Shown here: positions 1 through 9,418 of the stretch, one piece after another | Layout of the letters: each line of letters opens with the position of its first letter | Numbering within the stretch: the first letter of the stretch is position 1 | Source of the DNA: Phycisphaerae bacterium | GTDB lineage: Bacteria > Planctomycetota > Phycisphaerae > Phycisphaerales > SM1A02 | Length of the DNA stretch: 9,418 nt | NCBI GenBank assembly: GCA_002683195.1 | Contig: NYSW01000063.1 | Location: forward strand, 99,875-109,292 | Direction of reading: 5' to 3' | Translations under genes and position numbers: made by a program | Notes under the pieces: model-generated | What the model saw: only the letters and a program-made list of their open reading frames with translations | What the model was told of the DNA's origin: nothing | Database searches by the model: none

Positions 1-2417
1 AGAATGGCGCCCGCGGCGGCGATGCCGCTTTCCATCGCGTGCTCGACTCGACCGCCAAGGCACCAGTCTCCACATGCCAGCAGGGTGCGGTCTCGCGATG
101 CGAGGTGATCGACTTCGAGGGGTTGGCTCGTGAGTGCAAACCGCCAGCGGTGAGCATCGCCCGGGGCGGGTTCTGCGCCGAGTAGAGACGCCGCGAGAGC
201 CCGCAGTCTTGGCTCGACTTCGGTGCGATCGGATTCGAGGTTCGCCCGCGTCCAATCGGGAGAGGCGTGCATGGTCCACGCGCCGTGATCCTCGCGGCCG
301 GGTCGGCTTGCTTCGCGGGCGAGCCAACGAACGTCGGGCGTGGGGTCCACCGCGACGTCGAACCCCGGATCTTCCTTGATGCCGTCGATCATCAGGGTCC
401 AGGTCGGATCAACCATCACCTGGTCCAGCGCGGTGAGGATGGGTCTCTGATCGCAGGAATCGAAGTCGTCTTCAAACGGAGTCAGCAGGACGCGGGCCTG
501 ATGCGCGGGAATCGCAAGCACCAGTCGGTCGGCCGTGCCGAGCGACTGGCCGTCCGCATCGCGTGCTCGCCACCCATCGCTCGTCCGTTCGAGACCGGCG
601 ACGGCCGATTGATACCTGACTCGGAGATCGGTCTGCAGGTGGGTGACCAATCCGTTCATGCCGGGCATGGCGACGTACCAGGGTGCGTCGGGCGTGGTGA
701 CTTCACCATCGGCGTTCCTGACTCGAGGATTCCAGGCCGCGACCACGCCATCCTCGACCCAACTACGAGTCAGCTGCTCTCGGAGCCGGCCTCTGAGACG
801 GAGCACCTGACAACCGTGGTCGTGTCGGATCGGATGTTCCCGGTCCGGCCCGCGACGCCGGGTGCTCAAGCGTCCGCCAGGACCTCGTCCCTTGTCCAGC
901 AGGGTGACGGGGTGTCCATGATCATGCAATGTCCGGGCCGCGATCGAACCGGCGATGCCGGCACCGACGACCAGAACCGAGGCCCGTTGGATCCCGCTCC
1001 GAAGGCGATCGGCGTAGCGAGAGAGATTCAGGCGGCGGGCATGGTCGGTGGTCGATCGAACCCTCAGGGTGCCGGTGACCGCATTCTCCTCGGGGAACGG
1101 GCGGTCAAAGAGGCCGAGGCACCACAGGAGGCCGCCGACGGAGTTGGGATCGTGTCCGTCGAGGGCAAATCGATCATTCAGGTCGAAGAGTCGGTCAAGA
1201 GTCTGCCCCGGATCGCGGCTCCAACCGGTCAGTGCCTTTCCCCAGGTCATGCGGAGATTGTTGTGAAGCCAGCCTCGCTGGCGAAGGGCGGTCTGGGCGA
1301 GGTCCCAGGTCGCATCTCCGGTTCTTCCGCGGGAGAGAGTCTCCCAGGAGTGGCACCTCCTCGGGTCGCGAGCGTGGGATTCAAGGGTTTCCTGCGCCCA
1401 GGCGGGAACCGCATCGTATTCGTCGTGAGCGTGCTGGCTCCGGCAGAAATGAAAGGACAATTCCCGCCAGACCAGAAGTTCGTCGAGGAATTTCGCGCCG
1501 CCGTCGCCGCCGGCCCGATGGGCGTCGCGAGCCAGCCGGAACGGGGAGACCATGCCGTGGTGGATCCAGGGTGAGAGGCCGCTGGTTCCGTCGACCAGCG
1601 GATTGTTCCGGCGCCGGTCGTAGGTTCCGAGTCCGTCTTTGAGAAAGGACTCCCAACGATGCAGACCGGCCGACTCGCCGCCTGGCATGTCGGTCACCGG
1701 CCCGACCGAATGGTCAAGGGGCCAGCGGCCGGCCAGATCACGAAGAGCGGTGGTGTCGTGGTCACGCAGATCGAGCGCGTCCGCCGGGAGATCCGCCGTG
1801 GATGGTGTCGGGGCCGAGAGATCGGACGGGGGCCAGTCTTGATCCAGTCTCGCATTCCACTCCTGCTGGCAGGCGTCACGGAATCGAAAAGCGCGTTCGT
1901 GCGTGCCCTTCACCAGTCGTCCGGGCAACAGGCAGGACGCATCGACCATCACCGTGGGGCCGGGCGCTCGCTCGGCCATTTGGTGTGTCCAGGCCGGGTA
2001 GGGATTACGAGGAAAGTCTTCGGTCACGAGTACCCTCGCCCGCGCGATCAACCCCCGGAGACCGCTTGGTCGGTCCGGTCCGGACGGAGGCGTGATCGAC
2101 ATCATGATGCCGAGGTCTCGCAGTCGCCTTTGAAGTTCGGCCCAGCCCTCGAGCATGAAGATGGTGTGGCGATCATTGGCGAACGGGTGCCGTCCCCCGA
2201 ATCCGGCGTGGACCAGCAGTGGTCGTTCCACCCGTCGGGCGATCGACGCCGCGACCTCGATGACGGGATTTTCCTCGACCCGGCAGGCATGATGGAGCCA
2301 GCACACGACCAGATCCCCATTCGGGGCTTCGAGTCTGGATCCGGGATCGACCAGCGAACAACGTTCCGACAGATGGTGTGGAAGTTCGAACGGCAGCGAG
2401 TGTCCGGAACGAATCAC
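1..2417 (-). CDS. Class II CPD photolyase fused to a renalase-like (COG3380) FAD oxidoreductase; 3' end cut by the window edge
   Basis: 805 codons are open from GTG at 2417 to the left edge. Residues 1 to ~475 read as a class II cyclobutane-pyrimidine-dimer photolyase, which repairs UV dimers in DNA using light and reduced FAD. The N-terminal Rossmann part has CRVEENP at 45-51. The FAD/DNA half has DELLVWREL (312-320) and LNDRFALDGHDPN (413-425). Recalling Methanosarcina mazei numbering, the electron-transfer tryptophans W360/W381/W388 correspond to W371/W392/W399 with identical spacing, N403 to N414, E301/W305 to E313/W317, and W421 to W432, so photorepair activity is plausible. Residues ~478-805 form a second flavoprotein: GAGIAG dinucleotide fold (485-490), DKGRGPGGRLSTRR (508-521), and a C-terminal ACGDWCLGGRVE (781-792), as in COG3380. 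Little should be missing beyond base 1. I see no in-frame ATG or GTG near the junction, so the two halves appear to be one polypeptide. The GTG overlaps the TGA of the upstream SDR gene, suggesting translational coupling. The substrate of the second domain is unknown. Confidence 0.9.
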   Translation of the reverse strand, partial: MIRSGHSLPFELPHHLSERCSLVDPGSRLEAPNGDLVVCWLHHACRVEENPVIEVAASIARRVERPLLVHAGFGGRHPFANDRHTIFMLEGWAELQRRLRDLGIMMSITPPSGPDRPSGLRGLIARARVLVTEDFPRNPYPAWTHQMAERAPGPTVMVDASCLLPGRLVKGTHERAFRFRDACQQEWNARLDQDWPPSDLSAPTPSTADLPADALDLRDHDTTALRDLAGRWPLDHSVGPVTDMPGGESAGLHRWESFLKDGLGTYDRRRNNPLVDGTSGLSPWIHHGMVSPFRLARDAHRAGGDGGAKFLDELLVWRELSFHFCRSQHAHDEYDAVPAWAQETLESHARDPRRCHSWETLSRGRTGDATWDLAQTALRQRGWLHNNLRMTWGKALTGWSRDPGQTLDRLFDLNDRFALDGHDPNSVGGLLWCLGLFDRPFPEENAVTGTLRVRSTTDHARRLNLSRYADRLRSGIQRASVLVVGAGIAGSIAARTLHDHGHPVTLLDKGRGPGGRLSTRRRGPDREHPIRHDHGCQVLRLRGRLREQLTRSWVEDGVVAAWNPRVRNADGEVTTPDAPWYVAMPGMNGLVTHLQTDLRVRYQSAVAGLERTSDGWRARDADGQSLGTADRLVLAIPAHQARVLLTPFEDDFDSCDQRPILTALDQVMVDPTWTLMIDGIKEDPGFDVAVDPTPDVRWLAREASRPGREDHGAWTMHASPDWTRANLESDRTEVEPRLRALAASLLGAEPAPGDAHRWRFALTSQPLEVDHLASRDRTLLACGDWCLGGRVEHAMESGIAAAGAI

Positions 2418-3175
2418 GATGATCTGATCCGTCCGAGGCCACCGTCCACGCCGACGACCTGGCCGGTCACCCACGCCGAATCCTCGGAGGCCAGCCATTC
2501 GATCACCGGGGCGACGTCATCGGGGGTTCCGATCCGTCCGAGAGGGTGCATCTTTCGAGAATGTTCGAGGGCTCGTTCGCTGGATGTGATCCGGGAGGCC
2601 ATCGGGGTGTCGACCAACGCCGGCGCCACGACGTTGAAGCGAAGCCCACGAGTGGCGTAGGTCGCCGCGGCGGAACGAGCAAGTCCTTCGACTCCTGCTC
2701 CGGCCGCCGCGATGGCTTCGTGGTTCGGGAGCCCGACGGTGGCGGCGACGGTCGACACCAGCACCACGCTTCCCCCGGATTTCATATGACGTCCGGCCGC
2801 CCTGACACAGGCGAACGCGGTCGTGAGTTTGGCGGCGATGGTCCGATCCCAGTCGGCCTGAGTCAGCAGGTGAGCGGGCTTGAGCGTGATGCAACCGGCA
2901 AGATTCACGATGGTCCGCAACGGCGGCCGGTCCGCGTCGGCCACGAGGTCGCCGACGATCGAGTCGACGTCGTCGATGTTCGATGCGTCACAGATTCGCC
3001 GATCTGTGATTTCCGGACATTCACGCATCCGTGATTCCTCACGTCCGACGCCGACGACGGCGAATCCTCGGTTGGTGAGGCGTCGAACCACCGCTCGGCC
3101 GATGCCGCCTCCCGCTCCGATGACCAGAGCGGTTCCGGATTCCTCATTCTTGATGGGTGCTTGATCGTGCGTCAT
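2414..3175 (-). CDS. Short-chain dehydrogenase/reductase-fold protein lacking the catalytic tetrad
   Basis: 253 residues, normal for a classical SDR. The cofactor-binding half is intact: VIGAGGGIG at 18-26 is the Gly-rich NAD(P) loop, NLAG (91-94) stands in for NNAG, and the C-terminal half has the usual VAP...TPMASRI and GQVVGVDGG segments. The catalytic half is not canonical. By my alignment to the family pattern, the tetrad Asn is K116, Ser is T142, Tyr is I155 and Lys is G159 (AIAAAGAGV where AYxxSKAGV is normal). It probably binds a dinucleotide but may not perform ordinary SDR chemistry. The ATG at 3175 was chosen because AGGAGG lies 11 bases upstream and the fold begins just after; the frame is open further upstream but without family similarity. 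It overlaps the photolyase-fusion gene by GTGA, so the two probably form one transcript. Enzyme class and substrate cannot be named. Confidence 0.88.
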   Translation of the reverse strand: MTHDQAPIKNEESGTALVIGAGGGIGRAVVRRLTNRGFAVVGVGREESRMRECPEITDRRICDASNIDDVDSIVGDLVADADRPPLRTIVNLAGCITLKPAHLLTQADWDRTIAAKLTTAFACVRAAGRHMKSGGSVVLVSTVAATVGLPNHEAIAAAGAGVEGLARSAAATYATRGLRFNVVAPALVDTPMASRITSSERALEHSRKMHPLGRIGTPDDVAPVIEWLASEDSAWVTGQVVGVDGGLGRIRSS

Positions 3176-3449: not shown

Positions 3450-4112
3450 GTGAGCGACAATATCCGCATGATCGAAGAATCAATCGGTAGAGCGGATCGA
3501 ACACTGAAGGAACTGCTCGAGGATGCGTGGGCCGGGCTGACCGCGGCGGTGAAGGAAGGCCGGCATGAATGGCATCTTCCCGTCATCTCCACCACGACAT
3601 CCGACGGATGGCCTTCAGCGAGGGTGGTGGTGCTGAGAGGAGTCTGGCCGGAGACCCCGGAAGGGCCAACCATCTCCTGTCACACGGACGTGCGGAGCGA
3701 GAAGGTTCGCGAACTCGGCTTTGAATCCGGGGGGTCCAGGCCGATGGCCTGGACGTTCTACGAGCGAGGCCGCAAGGTTCAACTTCGAGTTCGAGGGGAG
3801 ACCAAGGTTCATGCGAACGACGACGTCTCCAATGAGGCCTGGAGTCGGACACCGACCACCAGCCGCCGCTGTTACATGGCACCCCACGGGCCGTCTGGTC
3901 GCCTCGACTCATGGCATCCGAACCTCCCGGACGCGTGGCGCGCGTCGGTGCCCGACGAGGCGTCCAGTGAAGCGGGGCGGGCGAACTTCGCGGTGATCCG
4001 AACCCAAATCTCGCGACTTGAGCGACTCGAGCTTCATCACGACGGTCATGTTCGAAGTGCGTGGGTCTGGGACGGTGCGAATCTGATCGATTCGACCTGG
4101 CTGGCGCCCTGA
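3450..4112 (+). CDS. Pyridoxamine 5'-phosphate oxidase-fold FMN-binding protein (Alr4036-like)
   Basis: 220 residues with the split-barrel flavoprotein pattern. ARVVVLR (57-63) and HTDVRSEKVREL (78-89) are the FMN-phosphate-binding segments. FYERGRKVQLRVRG (103-116) follows the family pattern, then W131 and SRR (138-140), and a short WLAP C-terminus like the RLAP end of PNPOx proteins. Such proteins bind FMN and oxidise or reduce small substrates; the Alr4036-type subgroup has no firmly known substrate, so true PLP synthesis should not be assumed. The GTG start at 3450 was chosen because GGGAG lies five bases upstream; an ATG at 3468 has no such site. It is divergent from the SDR and photolyase-fusion genes, adding a third flavin or dinucleotide protein to the cluster. 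Its TGA directly abuts the stop of the next, convergent gene. Confidence 0.85.
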   Translation: MSDNIRMIEESIGRADRTLKELLEDAWAGLTAAVKEGRHEWHLPVISTTTSDGWPSARVVVLRGVWPETPEGPTISCHTDVRSEKVRELGFESGGSRPMAWTFYERGRKVQLRVRGETKVHANDDVSNEAWSRTPTTSRRCYMAPHGPSGRLDSWHPNLPDAWRASVPDEASSEAGRANFAVIRTQISRLERLELHHDGHVRSAWVWDGANLIDSTWLAP

Positions 4113-4119
4113 TCAGGCG
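4105..4119. other. Palindrome containing both convergent stop codons
   Basis: CTGATCAG (4109-4116) is a perfect 8-base palindrome. It can be extended by C4108/G4117 and, across one bulged base, by GC/GC pairs. It contains the TGA of the plus-strand gene (4110-4112) and, read in reverse, the TGA of the minus-strand gene (4115-4113). It is too short and lacks T-tracts, so a bidirectional terminator role is doubtful. Confidence 0.3.
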
Positions 4120-4556
4120 ACCTTGCTCGGATGGTTCACTCGCCAGGCCGCAAGGAGGATCCCTCCAAACGGAATCCACCAGATCAGATCATTGGTCAGG
4201 ATCGTCCATCCGAATGACCAGTCAATGGCCCCTCGGCTGGCCGCCCAGGCGAAGCCGATGGGTCCGAAGATCTTTCCGAGAAGCCCGACCAGAATGATCG
4301 GCCAGTGTCTGATCGGATCACGGCTCGCGGCCAGATAGCCAACTCCGTAGACGCCGATCACCATCCCGAGGCACTGCCAGATGGCCCTGCCGGGGTCCGG
4401 CAGAGGGTCCATCCCGGCCAGTTGGAAGGGGAGATCCGGGGTGAGAATCACCGGGATGCCCCAAAGCAGGTTGTAGATGCCGGCTGCAACCAGCCAACCG
4501 CGCATCCAGCGTCGAGGGGCGAAAGCGGGGGAGGCTGGATCGTGGGGTGGCGTCAT
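4113..4556 (-). CDS. Small four-helix integral membrane protein of unknown function
   Basis: 147 residues with about four hydrophobic helices at ~19-38, 58-76, 84-106 and 112-138, and a short polar N-terminus. Conserved-looking pieces are RHWPIILVGLLGKIFGPIGF (82-101) and TNDLIWWIPF (~118-127), rich in Trp, Gly and Pro; I recognise this as a recurring small membrane protein without a known role. No enzymatic motif was seen. The ATG at 4556 is preceded by GGAG a few bases upstream. It converges with the PNPOx-like gene with no intergenic base, and lies 70 bases downstream of the TadG-like gene on the same strand, so it could be on that transcript or have its own promoter. I saw no promoter or terminator in the 70-base gap. 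Confidence 0.8.
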   Translation of the reverse strand: MTPPHDPASPAFAPRRWMRGWLVAAGIYNLLWGIPVILTPDLPFQLAGMDPLPDPGRAIWQCLGMVIGVYGVGYLAASRDPIRHWPIILVGLLGKIFGPIGFAWAASRGAIDWSFGWTILTNDLIWWIPFGGILLAAWRVNHPSKVA

Positions 4557-4626: not shown

Positions 4627-5877
4627 TCACCGCCGAAGGCTGGCCCGGCCACTGTCCATTTCGGTGCTGGTGAGAATGATCCGATCGAATCGGGTGGTGG
4701 AGTTCTCGGTTTGGATCCAGCGTTTGAGGACTCCGCCGTCGATGACCATGGCAGCATCATCGCTCATGCGAACGGTGGCCGACGGACCGTAGATGAAACC
4801 GGGCGACAGGATCGTGGCGTCATCACTCAAAGTGATCGTGGATGCCGCCGCCGTGATCAGCAGGGCGTCCGCCCAGTCATCGCCGATGATCGGGTCTCCG
4901 GTGAGCCGGCCGAAATCCTGAATCAGCAGATTTCCGGAATCAAGGAGCTGGATCATGGCGTCGACGAGGACGACTTCCGCGTTTCCAGTGATCTGAAGTC
5001 CGAGTCCGCCGAACTGGTGAACTCCGGGGAGGAGCCGGAGCGTTCCGGTACTGACGGTCACGCCACCGGGATGTCGACCGGATTCAAGATCAAAGACCTC
5101 TCCGGGTGCCAGGTCCGGAGGGGGGCTCGCGAGGTTCTTGTTGATCGTGAAGGGAATTCCCACGAACGGATCGTCGAGGGGATCGGCGCCGATTTCGATC
5201 GTGCCCTCGACGTTGGAGGCGTCTCCGGGGAGAAGATCGCCGGTGATCCGCAGTGCGGGCGTTTGAAGCAACGCTGAATCCCCGATTTTCGCAGCCTGCG
5301 AACTGGTGGAAACGACCGCCACCTCCCCGAAGGAGTCCTGAAGAGAAGCCTGGGAGAGCGAGAGTGCATTCTTGCTGCTCGCTTCAAGCAGGAGGAGCGA
5401 CGTCGATGCGGGCCGAGGATTCCACGTGGCGATGCCCGAGCGTTCGAACGTGATGTCCGCGAGTGAGAGGATGTTCGGAAGCAGGAATCCCGGAGCCGAG
5501 TTGGGGGCGTTGCCGCCCACTCGAACCGTCACCTTGACGGCATCGCGGGCATCTGGATCGGCCGTGAAAATTCGGTTTTCCGAATCCCAGGTGCCGGTGT
5601 GCAGATCACCTCCGGGAAGATCGCCGGGGACTTCGATGATCAGATCGCCGCCGGCACCGGTATTGCCGCTGGTGGCCAACATCGCTGAATCACGGAATAC
5701 GGCGAAGCCTTCAGGTAACCGGGCGGCGGCCGCCAGGGCGCCGGCATCCGCGGCGATCTTGGATTGCTGCAGGGACCGAAGGACGAGTCCGAATTCGATT
5801 CCCAGCCAGGTAAACGCGATCATCGCCGGCAGGGCGACGAGGAGCTTGATGCTGGAGATTCCGCGGCGACTCGTCAT
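4627..5877 (-). CDS. TadG-like Flp-pilus-associated protein with a long beta-rich extracytoplasmic part
   Basis: 416 residues. The N-terminus is TadE/TadG-like: basic TSRRG followed by one membrane helix (~7-30), then a polar helix with the characteristic AADAGALAAAARL (~42-54). Most of the protein then lies outside the cytoplasm. Residues ~250-400 are rich in short Gly/Asp-turn strands with repeated I/V patterns (GLQITGNAEVVLVDAMIQLL, ADALLITAAASTITLSDDA), which suggests a beta-solenoid or parallel beta fold; this is judged by eye. The position matching the prepilin +5 Glu is Lys (G6 / ISSIK), so processing by the prepilin peptidase is uncertain. A GAGGG sequence about 12 bases upstream supports the ATG at 5877. 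It is transcribed away from the cpaA-tadE genes, sharing a 160-base divergent region. It may be a minor pilus or envelope component. Confidence 0.72.
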   Translation of the reverse strand: MTSRRGISSIKLLVALPAMIAFTWLGIEFGLVLRSLQQSKIAADAGALAAAARLPEGFAVFRDSAMLATSGNTGAGGDLIIEVPGDLPGGDLHTGTWDSENRIFTADPDARDAVKVTVRVGGNAPNSAPGFLLPNILSLADITFERSGIATWNPRPASTSLLLLEASSKNALSLSQASLQDSFGEVAVVSTSSQAAKIGDSALLQTPALRITGDLLPGDASNVEGTIEIGADPLDDPFVGIPFTINKNLASPPPDLAPGEVFDLESGRHPGGVTVSTGTLRLLPGVHQFGGLGLQITGNAEVVLVDAMIQLLDSGNLLIQDFGRLTGDPIIGDDWADALLITAAASTITLSDDATILSPGFIYGPSATVRMSDDAAMVIDGGVLKRWIQTENSTTRFDRIILTSTEMDSGRASLRR

Positions 5878-6037
5878 ATCCGGTTTCCCTCGAACTACTT
5901 TTACAGATTCGACCCGTGTAGCCTTTGATCCGATACACCATCATGAGAGAAGGTGTGCAGGAAGGCCAGTGGATTTTGCAGTCCCACCTCTTCTTCCAGC
6001 AGGTCGATTTGTGGCTTGAAAGCCTTTGGAACACTTC
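5878..6037. promoter_or_regulatory. Divergent intergenic region between the TadG-like gene and cpaA
   Basis: 160 bases that must hold promoters for both directions. No good sigma-70 or sigma-54 pair could be picked by eye. A 5-bp inverted repeat ACACC (5935-5939) / GGTGT (5952-5956) with a 12-base gap could be an operator, but a repeat of this size is expected by chance. No Flp pilin open frame fits here, although pilin genes often sit just before the prepilin peptidase. Confidence 0.4.
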
Positions 6038-6652
6038 ATGATCTTAGCGACGAGTTCAGTATCAACGGTCGGCCCTCCGATTTGGATCTGGATCCTGCTG
6101 TTGGTGGCCTGTTCTGTGGCCGCGGTCACGGATATTCGTGAAACCCGTATTCCGAACTGGCTGACGCTTCCGCTCATTCTTACCGGGCTCGTGCAGGCTC
6201 CGATTCTCGGTGGTCTGCCGGGACTCGGAGATTCCGCCATCGGTATGGTGATCGCGAGCGCCCTTTTCATATGGGCGTACGCTTTTTTCGGGGGCGGTGC
6301 CGGCGATGCCAAATTCATGATGGGGCTTGGGCTCTGGCTCGGCTATGAAGCCGCTTTCGTGGTCACCGTGGCGATCACCATCGTGGGCTTCGTGTTCTCG
6401 ATGTTCGGAGTGGTGATCCGGGGGGACATTCGGGACATACCCATCGTGATCCTCACCGGATGGGCTCGAACCGGCCGGGCGGTGGGGCGGGTCTTGACGG
6501 GGCAGATAATCGAGCGTTCCGCCGAAGAGATCGAGGCGGCCACCATCAAGGGTCGTCGGCGACCTAAGGGATGGATCCCCTTTGCTCCGGCGATTTTGGG
6601 AGGCACACTCCTCGGGTGGTGGTACCTTTCAACCTACGGGCCGATCATATGA
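6038..6652 (+). CDS. cpaA: Prepilin peptidase of the Tad pilus (A24 family, CpaA/TadV)
   Basis: 204 residues; an inner-membrane aspartyl protease that cleaves the leader of Flp pilin and TadE-type pseudopilins. The two catalytic aspartates are clear: D32 in TDIRETRIPNWLT, just after the first helix, and D90 in GGGAGDAKFM, the GxGD motif. Hydrophobic helices surround both. Beyond the core, at ~130-185, there is a polar, charged stretch (IIERSAEEIEAATIKGRRR) before a last helix, making it somewhat longer than compact TadV proteins; it has no cysteine-rich methylase domain, as usual for this subfamily. The ATG at 6038 is preferred; an in-frame TTG lies 12 bases upstream, and only a weak GGA precedes the ATG. 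It overlaps tadE by four bases (ATGA), indicating coupled translation. Confidence 0.9.
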   Translation: MILATSSVSTVGPPIWIWILLLVACSVAAVTDIRETRIPNWLTLPLILTGLVQAPILGGLPGLGDSAIGMVIASALFIWAYAFFGGGAGDAKFMMGLGLWLGYEAAFVVTVAITIVGFVFSMFGVVIRGDIRDIPIVILTGWARTGRAVGRVLTGQIIERSAEEIEAATIKGRRRPKGWIPFAPAILGGTLLGWWYLSTYGPII

Positions 6653-7065
6653 ACCACAGCAAGACATTGAAACGCCACCGACGACGAGGGATCGAGTCCA
6701 TCGAGCTCCTTCTGGGGCTTCCGGTACTGCTCCTGGTCGTTGCGGCTGGTTTCGAGTACGGATGGATGCTGCTCAAGACCACTCAGCTTGATCATGCGGC
6801 CCGAGTCGGGGCCCGAGTCGCGTCTCTGGCAGGCGCGGACGGGGTCTCTGTTGCAAATCGGGTCACTGAAACGCTGGAGGCCTCTGGAATCAAAGGCGCT
6901 ACCATCGAGGTCTTCCCCGGTGAACCGGGAAGCATTCCGGCTGGCTCGATCGTAACTGTTTCAGTAGAAGTGAATTACGCGGATTCTTCGCTGCTCGGCC
7001 TGGGGACATTCATGCCGCTTCCTGATTCGATTCGGGGTCAGGCCGCAATGGTCCGAGAACCTTGA
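6649..7065 (+). CDS. tadE: TadE-like pseudopilin
   Basis: 138 residues. Basic N-terminus (KTLKRHRRRG) followed by a type IV prepilin-like cleavage site: G14 / I15 with Glu at +5 (IESIE), then a hydrophobic helix to ~36 and a polar helix with DHAARVGARVASLAG, typical of TadE-like domains. The C-terminal 80 residues look like a small extracytoplasmic beta domain. In characterised Tad systems TadE is processed by TadV, which here is encoded directly upstream and overlaps it by ATGA. The same frame is open upstream inside cpaA, but the overlap and the start of the family motif support ATG 6649. It is probably the last gene of a cpaA-tadE unit, as a promoter candidate follows. Confidence 0.88.
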   Translation: MNHSKTLKRHRRRGIESIELLLGLPVLLLVVAAGFEYGWMLLKTTQLDHAARVGARVASLAGADGVSVANRVTETLEASGIKGATIEVFPGEPGSIPAGSIVTVSVEVNYADSSLLGLGTFMPLPDSIRGQAAMVREP

Positions 7066-7119
7066 AGAGGTTTGTGAGGACTGCGGCCTGATGATCCGGT
7101 ACCAATCCTCAACCTCGGA

Positions 7120-7147
7120 GTGACAGGCCCCGGACTCCCGTTATAGT
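7120..7147 (+). promoter_or_regulatory. Candidate sigma-70-type promoter for cpaB-cpaC
   Basis: GTGACA (7120-7125; five of six matches to TTGACA) and TATAGT (7142-7147; five of six matches to TATAAT) are separated by 16 bases. Transcription would start near 7155, giving a leader of roughly 77 bases before the cpaB ATG. The pair falls outside any gene. Promoter consensus in the likely host phylum is less well defined, so this remains a candidate. Confidence 0.5.
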
Positions 7148-7168
7148 CGATTGAGTTCTTCTCTCACC

Positions 7169-7189
7169 TTGAGTGCCTGGAGTGCTCAA
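7169..7189 (+). other. Imperfect hairpin in the cpaB leader
   Basis: TTGAGTGC and GTGCTCAA can pair over eight positions, two of them G-U wobbles, around a five-base loop (CTGGA). It falls in the predicted 5' leader of the cpaB transcript, 42 bases before the start codon. No T-run follows, so it is not a terminator. Function unknown. Confidence 0.3.
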
Positions 7190-7231
7190 CGTCCATCTTT
7201 CTTGATTTCAGATTCAGACCGAGGTCTCAGA

Positions 7232-8167
7232 ATGCGCCAAATAACCATGATTGTGCTTGGTCTTGGGCTCGCTCTCGGAGCGGCAGCCTTGGTCTCCGTG
7301 CTCCAATCGGGCCTCGTGGCTGCCAACTCGGCGGAAGCCGCGGCGGCATCCGCATCGGCGCCCTCGTCCGCGAGCGGCCCGGATGAGGTGCTGGTGGCGG
7401 TGCTCGCTCGTGACCTGCAATCCGGCCATCGGATCACGCCCGACGATCTGTCGGTCGAGGTGGTCGATGCATCGGCCGACCTCAATGGTGTGGTACGGAC
7501 TCCGCTGGCGGTGGTCGGGCGTGTCTTGATCGCGTCGGGAGTCAAAGGGGAACTTCTCCGAACCATGAACCTCGCAAGGCCCGGAACCGGTGCCTCCATC
7601 GCCGCCCAACTGCAGCCTGGTGATCGGGCCGCGACGGTGACGCTGAGAGATGTGGGTGCGAAGGTGATCCTGTATCCCGGTGCAAAGGTGGACGTGCTCG
7701 CGACCATGCAGCTTCTCGACGGTCGGAATCAGCGACGAACAGCGACTCGAACCATCCTTCAAGATCGTCGAGTCCTCGCCGTCGACGATGAAATCGCCGG
7801 CGGAGAAGTCGCGGCGATCGACGACGACGGACGTCGTCGTCCCGTGGCGAGATCCATCACGGTCACGCTCGCCGTCCGGCCGGGAGAGGTCGAGAAACTG
7901 GAGTTGGCGAGTGAGCAAGGGACGATCGGCCTGGTGCTGAGGCCCATGGAAGGCGACGTTTCGGCGGCGAATTCCGTGGCGACGGCGGAGACCATGTTCG
8001 GAGAATCCAAGGCTCGCAACGCTCCTCGGATTCAGGACGACTCCGCGGTTCTGGCGCCCGCCCCTCCGCAGGGACTCGATGCGGACTGGTGGGACATGGT
8101 CGTGATTCGCGGCGGAAAGTCTGAAGGTCACCGTTTCGATTCTGAATCCGAAGAACAAGAAAACTGA
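7232..8167 (+). CDS. cpaB: Flp pilus assembly protein CpaB/RcpC
   Basis: 311 residues. An N-terminal signal/membrane helix (~3-25) precedes an Ala/Ser-rich linker, an SAF domain (~51-115; VLVAVLARDLQSGHRITPDD) and the RcpC/CpaB domain (~125-240; GDRAATVTLRDVGAKVILYPG and ITVTLAVRPGEVEKLELASE). The protein ends with WWDMVVIRGG (286-295), the WxVxVxRG-type terminal strand, and an acidic tail. CpaB is a periplasmic partner of the CpaC secretin in Tad systems and may bind peptidoglycan through its SAF domain. The ATG at 7232 was chosen because GAGGT lies six bases upstream and the signal helix starts there; the frame is open up to 7151 but without such features. The next gene starts 37 bases downstream, past a run of eight G residues. 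Confidence 0.9.
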   Translation: MRQITMIVLGLGLALGAAALVSVLQSGLVAANSAEAAAASASAPSSASGPDEVLVAVLARDLQSGHRITPDDLSVEVVDASADLNGVVRTPLAVVGRVLIASGVKGELLRTMNLARPGTGASIAAQLQPGDRAATVTLRDVGAKVILYPGAKVDVLATMQLLDGRNQRRTATRTILQDRRVLAVDDEIAGGEVAAIDDDGRRRPVARSITVTLAVRPGEVEKLELASEQGTIGLVLRPMEGDVSAANSVATAETMFGESKARNAPRIQDDSAVLAPAPPQGLDADWWDMVVIRGGKSEGHRFDSESEEQEN

Positions 8168-8183
8168 CTCACTGTTGCTCCCC

Positions 8184-8191
8184 GGGGGGGG
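8184..8191 (+). repeat. Homopolymer G8 tract between cpaB and cpaC
   Basis: Four C then eight G residues (C4G8) lie in the 37-base spacer, upstream of the GAGGA ribosome binding site of cpaC. Such tracts can slip during replication, and here a length change would alter spacing rather than reading frame. It may also be a site of sequencing error. Confidence 0.5.
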
Positions 8192-8204
8192 CGAGGACGC
8201 ATCA

Positions 8205-9418
8205 ATGATCCAATACATGACTGTTGCAGCCACTGCTCTGGCGGTTGCCACGTCTTCGTTCTCCTTTGCGACCGAGGACGGGAAACTCACTCAGACTCGG
8301 ATTTCCGGCATGACCGATGTGGAATCGGTTTCGATCACCACGGGCCAGTCATCGCTTGTGTCGCTGGGTGAACGAATCGAACGTGTGGTCGTGGTTGATG
8401 AAAAGATCGCCGATGCCGAACCGGTCGACGCCGACGAAGTGCTGTTGATCGGGCGAGCCCCTGGTGTCACCGACGTGGTGTTTCGATTGGAATCCGGAGC
8501 CACCGTGTGTCGTCGACTCGAAGTCGGTTTCGATGCCGCGGGGCTGGAGTCGCAACTCCGGCGTCTGTTCGGGGTCTATCTTTCGGTCGACGAGGTCGGG
8601 GGGACGATCGCGGTGCGCGGCCTGATGCCGGATGTCGAGATCGCAGGCCTCGTGACCGCCTTCATGGACGACATTGGAATCAACTGGATCGACCTCACTC
8701 GGATTCCCGGGGTGCGTCAGGTCCAACTTCGGGTTCGGATCGCGGAAGCCAGTCGATCGGCGCTGAGGCAGCTGGCGTTCGGCGGGGTCATCGGTGGGAG
8801 TAACTTCTTCGGTGGAGTGCAGAGTCCCGGCGGATCCGCCTTCCAGAGCGCCGGCATCAGTCCGGTTGGCGCGGCCGCGGCGACGGGGACCGAATTCGAC
8901 CTCGCAAAGGCGAAGACCGTTTCCAGTGCCACCACGCTCTTTGCTGGTGTTCCCGGTGCGGATCTGGAGATCTTCCTCGAGGCATTGGACGAAAACCGAT
9001 ACGTCAGAATGCTGGCGGAACCGAATCTGGTCGCATCCAGCGGTGAGGAAGCGACCTTCCTCGTCGGCGGCGAGTTCCCGATTCCAATCACTCAAGGCGG
9101 AGGCCTTGGTGGTGGCCAGGCGGTCACGATCGAATACAAGGAATACGGTGTTCGTCTGGTGTTTCGTCCGGAGGTTCTCGGTGACGGTTTGATCCGGCTC
9201 GAAGTGGCGCCGGAAGTGAGCGAGCTCAGCGAGCTCGGAGCGGTCGATCTGAACGGATACAAGGTGCCTGGGGTCACGACTCGGCGTTCAAGCACCACGG
9301 TCGAACTCGGGAGTGGGCAGTCGTTCGCGCTCGCTGGCTTGATTCGCACCTTCGAGCAGGGCAAGGTCTCGCGTATTCCGCTCCTCGGTGACATTCCGTT
9401 GCTCGGAACGTTGTTCCG
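8205..9418 (+). CDS. cpaC: Outer-membrane secretin CpaC/RcpA of the Tad pilus; 3' end cut by the window edge
   Basis: 404 residues are visible. A signal peptide (~1-22, ending SFSFA) is followed by a pilus N-terminal domain (~40-108; SLGERIERVVVVDEKIADAE and ALxxG-like LLIGRAPGVTDVVFRLESG), a BON/N-type domain (~110-165; VDEVGGTIAVRGLMPDVE) and the secretin domain from ~170. Secretin signatures are LAEPNLVASSGEEATFLVGG (270-289), VPGVTTRRSSTTVELGSG (354-371), and IPLLGDIPLLGTLF (391-404), where the window ends; only the C-terminal edge of the domain should be missing. It forms the multimeric outer-membrane ring for the Flp pilus, working with CpaB directly upstream. The ATG at 8205 follows GAGGA at a normal distance. 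A Gly/Ser/Ala-rich insert (~192-228) may be a disordered or gate-proximal loop. Confidence 0.92.
   Translation, partial: MIQYMTVAATALAVATSSFSFATEDGKLTQTRISGMTDVESVSITTGQSSLVSLGERIERVVVVDEKIADAEPVDADEVLLIGRAPGVTDVVFRLESGATVCRRLEVGFDAAGLESQLRRLFGVYLSVDEVGGTIAVRGLMPDVEIAGLVTAFMDDIGINWIDLTRIPGVRQVQLRVRIAEASRSALRQLAFGGVIGGSNFFGGVQSPGGSAFQSAGISPVGAAAATGTEFDLAKAKTVSSATTLFAGVPGADLEIFLEALDENRYVRMLAEPNLVASSGEEATFLVGGEFPIPITQGGGLGGGQAVTIEYKEYGVRLVFRPEVLGDGLIRLEVAPEVSELSELGAVDLNGYKVPGVTTRRSSTTVELGSGQSFALAGLIRTFEQGKVSRIPLLGDIPLLGTLF

Follow-up and report, generated by a model that had tools for sequence, protein, structure and literature searches.

A class II photolyase fused to a COG3380/renalase-like flavoprotein in Planctomycetota and other bacteria, with an apparently altered surface at its terminal tryptophan

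A reading frame at the edge of a 9,418-nucleotide stretch of Phycisphaerae bacterium contig NYSW01000063.1 (the window) codes for two flavoproteins in one chain, an apparent class II photolyase followed by a COG3380/renalase-like FAD-binding oxidoreductase. The question raised by this locus is whether the second enzyme serves the photolyase flavin or carries out a chemistry of its own. Solved relatives of both halves are unfused: the class II CPD photolyase of Methanosarcina mazei (2XRY, 4CDN) lacks a second flavoprotein, and the Pseudomonas renalase (4ZCC, 4ZCD, 5KRQ, 3KKJ) stands alone. A first-pass annotation of the window stated that no characterised protein of this architecture was known. 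This agrees with a search of open-licence PubMed Central literature, in which no paper describing a photolyase-COG3380 fusion was found, and the available passages of PMC4016680 and PMC7560933 make no mention of the architecture; in databases the fusion is already common, under names that are partly automatic annotations such as 'photolyase PhrII'.

The minus-strand frame that begins at the GTG codon stays open up to the window edge. Residues 36-472 match the M. mazei class II photolyase (E 1.4e-49) and residues 481-802 the Pseudomonas renalase (E 4.2e-42), whose domain we take to be the one named COG3380. Open frame and homology matches thus bear out the annotated combination of a photolyase and a second FAD oxidoreductase in one polypeptide. 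The second domain had been called complete, which does not hold within the window: its C-terminus is cut by the window edge, with about 20 residues missing compared with P0002, a near-identical protein of 844 amino acids from a longer contig that carries 20 further residues and whose numbering is that of the annotation plus 19. The proposed gap of about 35 residues between the domains also had to be given up, as the structural match of the photolyase part ends at P0002 residue 492 and that of the renalase part begins at 498. The reported absence of in-frame ATG or GTG codons near the junction was confirmed and extends to TTG, none of the three being found in codons 400-496. The first TTG (codon 497) lies after the GxGxxG motif (485-490), so that an internal start there cannot yield an intact second domain.

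Table 1. Features of the fusion locus in window coordinates; P0001 and P0002 give protein positions.
Feature	Position	Strand	Details
Fusion gene, class II photolyase + COG3380 flavoprotein	3..2417	-	GTG start at 2417, 805 codons in window
Putative class II CPD photolyase domain	999..2372	-	P0001 16-473; P0002 35-492
COG3380/renalase-like FAD domain	3..983	-	P0001 479-805, cut; P0002 498-831 in full protein
S357-W358	1344..1349	-	P0002 376-377, beside M. mazei Tyr345 position
W371, triad member	1305..1307	-	P0002 W390, M. mazei W360; W in 191/191 and 389/389
W392, triad member proximal to FAD	1242..1244	-	P0002 W411, M. mazei W381; 191/191, 389/389
L396	1230..1232	-	P0002 415, three residues ahead of terminal Trp; covaries with COG3380 residue 508
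W399, terminal triad Trp	1221..1223	-	P0002 W418, M. mazei W388; 190/191, 388/389
GxGxxG dinucleotide-binding loop, second domain	948..965	-	A489 (951-953) = P0002 508
W553 + D556, end of COG3380 helix	750..761	-	P0002 572 and 575; 575 couples with P0002 376
Short-chain dehydrogenase (SDR) gene	2414..3175	-	PF13561 E 2.1e-50; upstream, same strand, overlaps fusion by 4 bp (2414-2417)
PPOX-type FMN flavoprotein	3450..4112	+	PF12766; divergent neighbour
147-aa protein, no Pfam match	4113..4556	-	beside PPOX gene in L003-L005

A gene whose end runs off the window might be suspected of being an assembly or gene-calling artefact. A scan of the genome collection yielded 533 relatives in 559 matching stretches, and in all of the best-scoring 80 of these 533 GTDB loci both domains lie in one uninterrupted frame, in many assemblies that include the chromosome records CP036526, CP036272 and CP043547. 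Neither a frameshift or stop at the junction nor domains always made separately, which the annotation had named as observations that would undo its reading, were encountered in these 80 loci, and an artefact is rejected, its probability being negligible. One stop was flagged inside the matched stretch in two of eight fusion matches (G004 and G005). The corresponding loci (L071 and L070) have both domains in one open frame, hence the flagged stops are taken to sit at the match edge.

Record titles of the best 80 of 533 loci cover six phyla, mostly Planctomycetota, with Pseudomonadota, Desulfobacterales, Rhodothermales, Longimicrobiales (Gemmatimonadota) and Sandaracinaceae (Myxococcota) as other groups, and protein names among the homologues listed add Acidobacteriota and Bacteroidota. 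Two metagenome assemblies titled Klebsiella pneumoniae and Candidatus Kuenenia (loci L075 and L038) bear fusions about 40% identical to that of the window, and these titles seem wrong. Protein searches covered the best 120 of 939 homologues of the window fusion (E up to 1e-3), the best 120 of 2591 homologues of P0048, whose relatives are named Pseudomonadota, and the best 120 of 1690 of a Desulfobacterales member. Among the matches listed, 321 of 329 distinct proteins exceed 720 amino acids and the eight shorter ones seem truncated, frameshifted or internally deleted; protein and locus sets alike, the former drawn from up to about 8000 candidates per search, consist of best-scoring matches and are biased towards full-length fusions. 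A draw of 199 Planctomycetota genomes (the phylum of G001), with at most four candidates scored per genome, gave a near full-length fusion in seven, counting the chosen centre G001 and one fusion split near its end, while many others carry a standalone class II photolyase, a standalone COG3380 protein, or both. No plasmid record among 63 matching ones covers 80% of the fusion query (0/63), and a genome scan with a single query gave no match.

The fusion architecture is ancient and widespread. In a tree of the photolyase domain (23 fused and 21 standalone rows) a single branch with SH-aLRT 100 separates all fused sequences from the standalone ones. The tree of the renalase domain (23 fused and 36 standalone rows, omitting the three standalone rows L153, L154 and L157) has little resolution, with fused sequences interspersed among standalone ones (9 changes); a constraint that keeps the fused sequences together gave a likelihood higher by 4.9 (AU p 0.558). 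Multiple independent fusions are not needed, the constrained renalase tree fitting no worse than the free one, and a single fusion event is compatible with these data, rather than proven by them. A recent fusion of adjacent operon genes within Planctomycetota was not seen: none of 16 selected standalone COG3380 genes of this phylum, some on short contigs, adjoins a class II photolyase/PF03441 match, and a DPRP-type photolyase is found near one of the 16.

The photolyase part was compared, residue by residue, in 191 non-redundant fusions and in an alignment of 389 fusions, with a reference set of 20 standalone class II proteins that come mostly from one phylum (17 from the Planctomycetota draw and one each from G001, G006 and G008). 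The three tryptophans annotated as the electron transfer triad could be maintained as such, since they align with the M. mazei triad and their codons were checked (Table 1). The equivalents of E301, W305 and N403 are each present in 191/191 fusions and W421 in 189/191; these are catalytic/CPD-site residues. The R256 and M379 equivalents are invariant in the 191 fusions. Sequence and fold homology to class II extends across the whole photolyase part, and we infer that this N-terminal part is a CPD photolyase. By score the fusion photolyases are a divergent subfamily, the window protein (261 bits) and P0048 (320.5 bits) falling short of the NCBIfam TIGR00591 cut-off of 550 bits.

The surface around the terminal tryptophan of the class II triad was characterised in M. 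mazei. According to passages of PMC5885780, the proton lost by Trp388 is taken up by a cluster of surface waters that Tyr380, Lys384, Glu387, Ser342, His356 and Asp357 keep in place, the cluster is described as a general class II property, and Tyr345, 3.8 A from Trp388, extends the chain to four members. The available part of PMC7560933 also reports that class II enzymes share a conserved tyrosine. Compared with the M. mazei structures, the fusions are largely changed at the H356, K384, E387 and Tyr345 positions and carry phenylalanine in place of W431. The K384 position is alanine in 173/191 fusions versus lysine in 20/20 standalone proteins, and the H356 position is glycine in 146/191 versus histidine in 19/20. 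E387 is kept in 19/191 fusions versus 14/20 standalone proteins. Tyr345 is a tyrosine in 65/191 fusions (143/345 by motif) versus 20/20, the two counts arising from an ambiguously aligning loop in which the large alignment puts Tyr345 elsewhere. D357 is mostly retained (160/191). At most two of K384, E387, D357 and Y345 remain in 190/191 fusions, versus at least three in all 20 standalone proteins.

Further positions separate the two sets. The Tyr376 site is asparagine in 190/191 fusions versus tyrosine in 19/20 standalone proteins, the W431 position phenylalanine in 185/191 (P0002 F460) versus tryptophan in 20/20, and the A297 position lysine in 191/191 (P0002 K328), a residue never found there in the standalone set. 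The Tyr380 site, threonine in 190/191 fusions, is leucine rather than tyrosine in 19/20 standalone proteins, and both it and the Ser342 position are unconserved in the 20 standalone rows as well. The fusion-specific N406, T410 and A414 lie 12, 8 and 4 residues ahead of W418, on one face of helix 405-418. The tryptophan at P0002 377 (window W358), found in 321/389 fusions, is replaced by leucine in 16/20 standalone proteins and is largely fusion-specific. The class II electron-exit surface at the terminal tryptophan is largely changed, not wiped out. The fusion is filed here as a putative variant of class II photolyase, agreeing with the class in homology, fold and triad and departing from it in NCBIfam score and terminal-tryptophan surface.

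The two domains are joined by a linker of 22 residues in 357/389 fusions. AlphaFold models of two members that are 43% identical to each other reach a pTM of 0.94; a lower value would be expected if the domains had no defined orientation, so that the arrangement looks fixed, and a rigid assembly of the two domains is predicted by the models. Coupling between the domains was assessed by mean-field analysis (DCA) of 389 fusions over 760 columns, with an effective number of 317 sequences and ranking of pairs at least 6 columns apart. The inter-domain pairs 376-575, 376-571 and 415-508 rank 5, 11 and 39 of all pairs with scores of 2.13, 1.78 and 1.22, and seven inter-domain scores exceed 1.0. Residue 376 adjoins the Tyr345 position, 508 belongs to the GxGxxG motif of COG3380, and positions 571 and 575 sit at the end of helix 563-574, which bears W572. 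This tryptophan is near-fixed in the fusions (386/389 versus 17/35 standalone COG3380 proteins).

The strength of these couplings was gauged by re-pairing the domains. One global re-pairing gave a best inter-domain score of 0.86, with none above 1.0. When the domains were exchanged within clades instead, the top scores of the four runs were 1.05, 1.47, 1.58 and 1.20, and two or three scores exceeded 1.0. Pair 376-575 keeps a score of 0.80-1.47 under re-pairing within clades, so part of its signal is clade history; pair 415-508 drops to between -0.24 and 0.25. The 63 sequences with aspartate at 376 belong to 19 clusters, and in these sequences 575 is R/K in 23 and D/E in 0; in the 326 sequences lacking D376, 575 is D/E in 223 and R/K in 8. 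On a tree built without the coupled columns D376 needs 19 changes. Over 15 independent pairs, an acidic 575 on average went the opposite way in 7.4 and the same way in 0, the remaining 7.6 showing no difference (median p 0.0078 by sign test). The association of D376 with a basic 575 over independent pairs was not significant (median p 1), and that of L415 with A508 was borderline (median p 0.057). Other strong inter-domain couplings (192-654, 470-747, 114-695 and 86-800) are not placed by the docking model. From the covarying positions we infer that the FAD-binding face of COG3380 packs against the terminal-tryptophan surface.

The reading that we favour, at a probability just short of an even chance, is that of an ancient two-flavin class II photolyase in which the COG3380 domain caps the terminal tryptophan and feeds electrons to the photolyase FAD. 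The renalase-like FAD domain would be held in a fixed position above the terminal tryptophan and would cover what is, in ordinary class II enzymes, the contact site with solvent and the proton-accepting water cluster. It would be reduced by NAD(P)H or a donor resembling it, and the electrons would run through the tryptophan triad, so that the photolyase FAD would be maintained in, or returned to, the FADH- state and repair would be independent of soluble reductants. A tethered reductase is preferred because it best accounts for the retained triad, the altered exit, the covarying contact and the fixed geometry. The earlier suggestion of a second flavoprotein acting as reductant of the photolyase flavin is to this extent favoured by the predicted geometry, the changed tryptophan surface and the covariation found there. 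A more specific version is tentative and held at clearly less than an even chance: a photolyase powered by its own tethered NAD(P)H flavoenzyme, whose electrons would reach the photolyase FAD by way of the triad, perhaps without light, the water-cluster exit having become an inter-flavin gate that replaces photoactivation by soluble reductants.

The in vivo need for triad photoactivation of the photolyase flavin is presented as a matter of debate in the available part of PMC3204975. The fusions form a natural family that spans several phyla and retains the triad, although a second redox enzyme seemingly covers the triad's exit to solvent. Should electrons cross between the domains, this family would provide a direct test of the photoactivation question and a scaffold ready for light-independent photolyase activation.

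The COG3380 domain has the bacterial renalase fold and its dinucleotide-binding motifs. Bacterial renalase has 2-/6-dihydroNAD(P) oxidase activity. The main alternative to a tethered reductase, itself rather unlikely and in line with the annotation's other suggestion of a renalase-like detoxification, is an independent renalase-type metabolite-repair oxidase that converts damaged NAD(P)H isomers to NAD(P)+, the two enzymes being made together since both are needed in sunlight, with a docking that only stabilises the protein and no electrons crossing. It is in keeping with the closest solved relative, the Pseudomonas renalase, whose structures contain NADH, NAD+ and NADPH according to their titles, ligands that also speak for the tethered reductase, and it would leave unexplained the near-constant linker, the rigid model and the change at the tryptophan-exit surface. 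The motif DHGAQYFTARD of the relatives is moreover lost in the window clade, in a strand that has been rewritten: positions 789-821 on the minus strand of the window (P0002 552-562) read DHGCQVLRLRG in this clade of 21 sequences, where the 368 other fusions mostly have DHGAQYFTARD. A555, Y557 and T559 are kept in 358, 349 and 345 of these 368 and are C, V and R in 21/21 of the window clade, whose second domain may, judging by this motif, differ in donor or substrate.

Standalone COG3380 genes are informative on this metabolite-repair alternative, as their presence in clusters of the light or singlet-oxygen type indicates that the protein can work unfused. Six plasmid loci with such a gene were opened and three resemble light-stress or photolyase clusters. 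L084 combines standalone COG3380 with ChrR, ECF sigma and DUF3429, and L085 with FolE, SDR, DUF2256, MerR and a photolyase. In an Asticcacaulis plasmid (L081, 5941-8047) there is an overlap between the COG3380 gene and one coding for a 390-aa protein that has just the photolyase C-terminal FAD domain, a possible two-gene counterpart from another photolyase class. The gene lies by katG and an error-prone polymerase in L082 and by a UbiB kinase in L083; L086 has neither. A strong standalone COG3380 match was found in 17/185 genomes of Gammaproteobacteria (the class of G002), and 5 of these 17 have a photolyase-family gene in the flank, one of them fragmentary, versus 1/16 in Planctomycetota; the gammaproteobacterial proportion also speaks for a metabolite-repair role. 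The flank in L139 (G231, 7258-15000) shows standalone COG3380 near three photolyase-family matches and a MerR match.

Two other functions place the same domain contact in a different context. Photolyase-family proteins can turn into photoreceptors by gaining C-terminal parts, and the fusion might be a light/redox sensor in which the photolyase flavin is the antenna and COG3380 serves as output or as a redox gate, with repair or signalling under its control; the proposed contact at the tryptophan exit would suit this. Such a role is improbable: the examined catalytic positions are kept in essentially all fusions, unlike in typical cryptochromes, and no regulator is fused. Single probes for DUF3429, MerR and UbiB, and for ChrR and ECF sigma (blastp, E up to 1e-6), matched 0/80 of the best-scoring fusion loci, the ChrR, ECF sigma and MerR results arguing against a sensor. 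More improbable still is a reversed electron flow, in which the photolyase part, driven by light, would power photo-oxidation or photoreduction at the active site of COG3380. This photoenzyme would have a geometry identical to that of the tethered reductase, and both the COG3380 motif rewritten in one clade and the amine oxidase-like flavoproteins among the neighbours are consistent with it, but the near-invariance of the CPD-binding and catalytic residues is accounted for by repair alone.

Close relatives keep the fusion gene in an operon. Of the five closest loci, four (L001, L003, L004 and L005) have genes for SDR, the fusion, DUF2256-DUF3253, FolE, an amine-oxidase-like protein and a photolyase in this order on a single strand, while L002 stops soon past the fusion; the gene families were checked on the L003 and L004 members, in which the photolyase that closes the series is of class I type. 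Passages of PMC9758184 describe light-inducible phrB/SDR/FAD-oxidoreductase/UfaM and folE clusters in Pseudomonas, and light- and singlet-oxygen-responsive operons of this genus contain phrB, SDR and flavin oxidoreductases (available parts of PMC9758184 and PMC5507510). The operon of the window's relatives is alike in combining SDR, photolyase, FolE and flavin oxidoreductase genes, whereas in the Pseudomonas clusters, as far as described in those passages of PMC9758184, the photolyase is a separate gene.

Of these neighbour families counted over the 80 best-scoring fusion loci, whose flanks vary in length with a median of about 11 kb in all, further photolyase-family genes of any type (26 loci), SDR-family matches (23) and DPRP-type photolyases (17) are the most frequent, ahead of DUF2256 (11), Nei/Fpg (7) and FolE (4). 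The PPOX gene is upstream of the fusion in the close relatives L003, L004 and L005 (3/80), and L004 has an extra photolyase-like frame between the upstream PPOX/147-aa genes and the operon. The remainder of the window (4627-9416) is occupied by a Flp/Tad pilus locus that codes for a TadE/G-like protein, a type IV prepilin peptidase, TadE, CpaB and a secretin.
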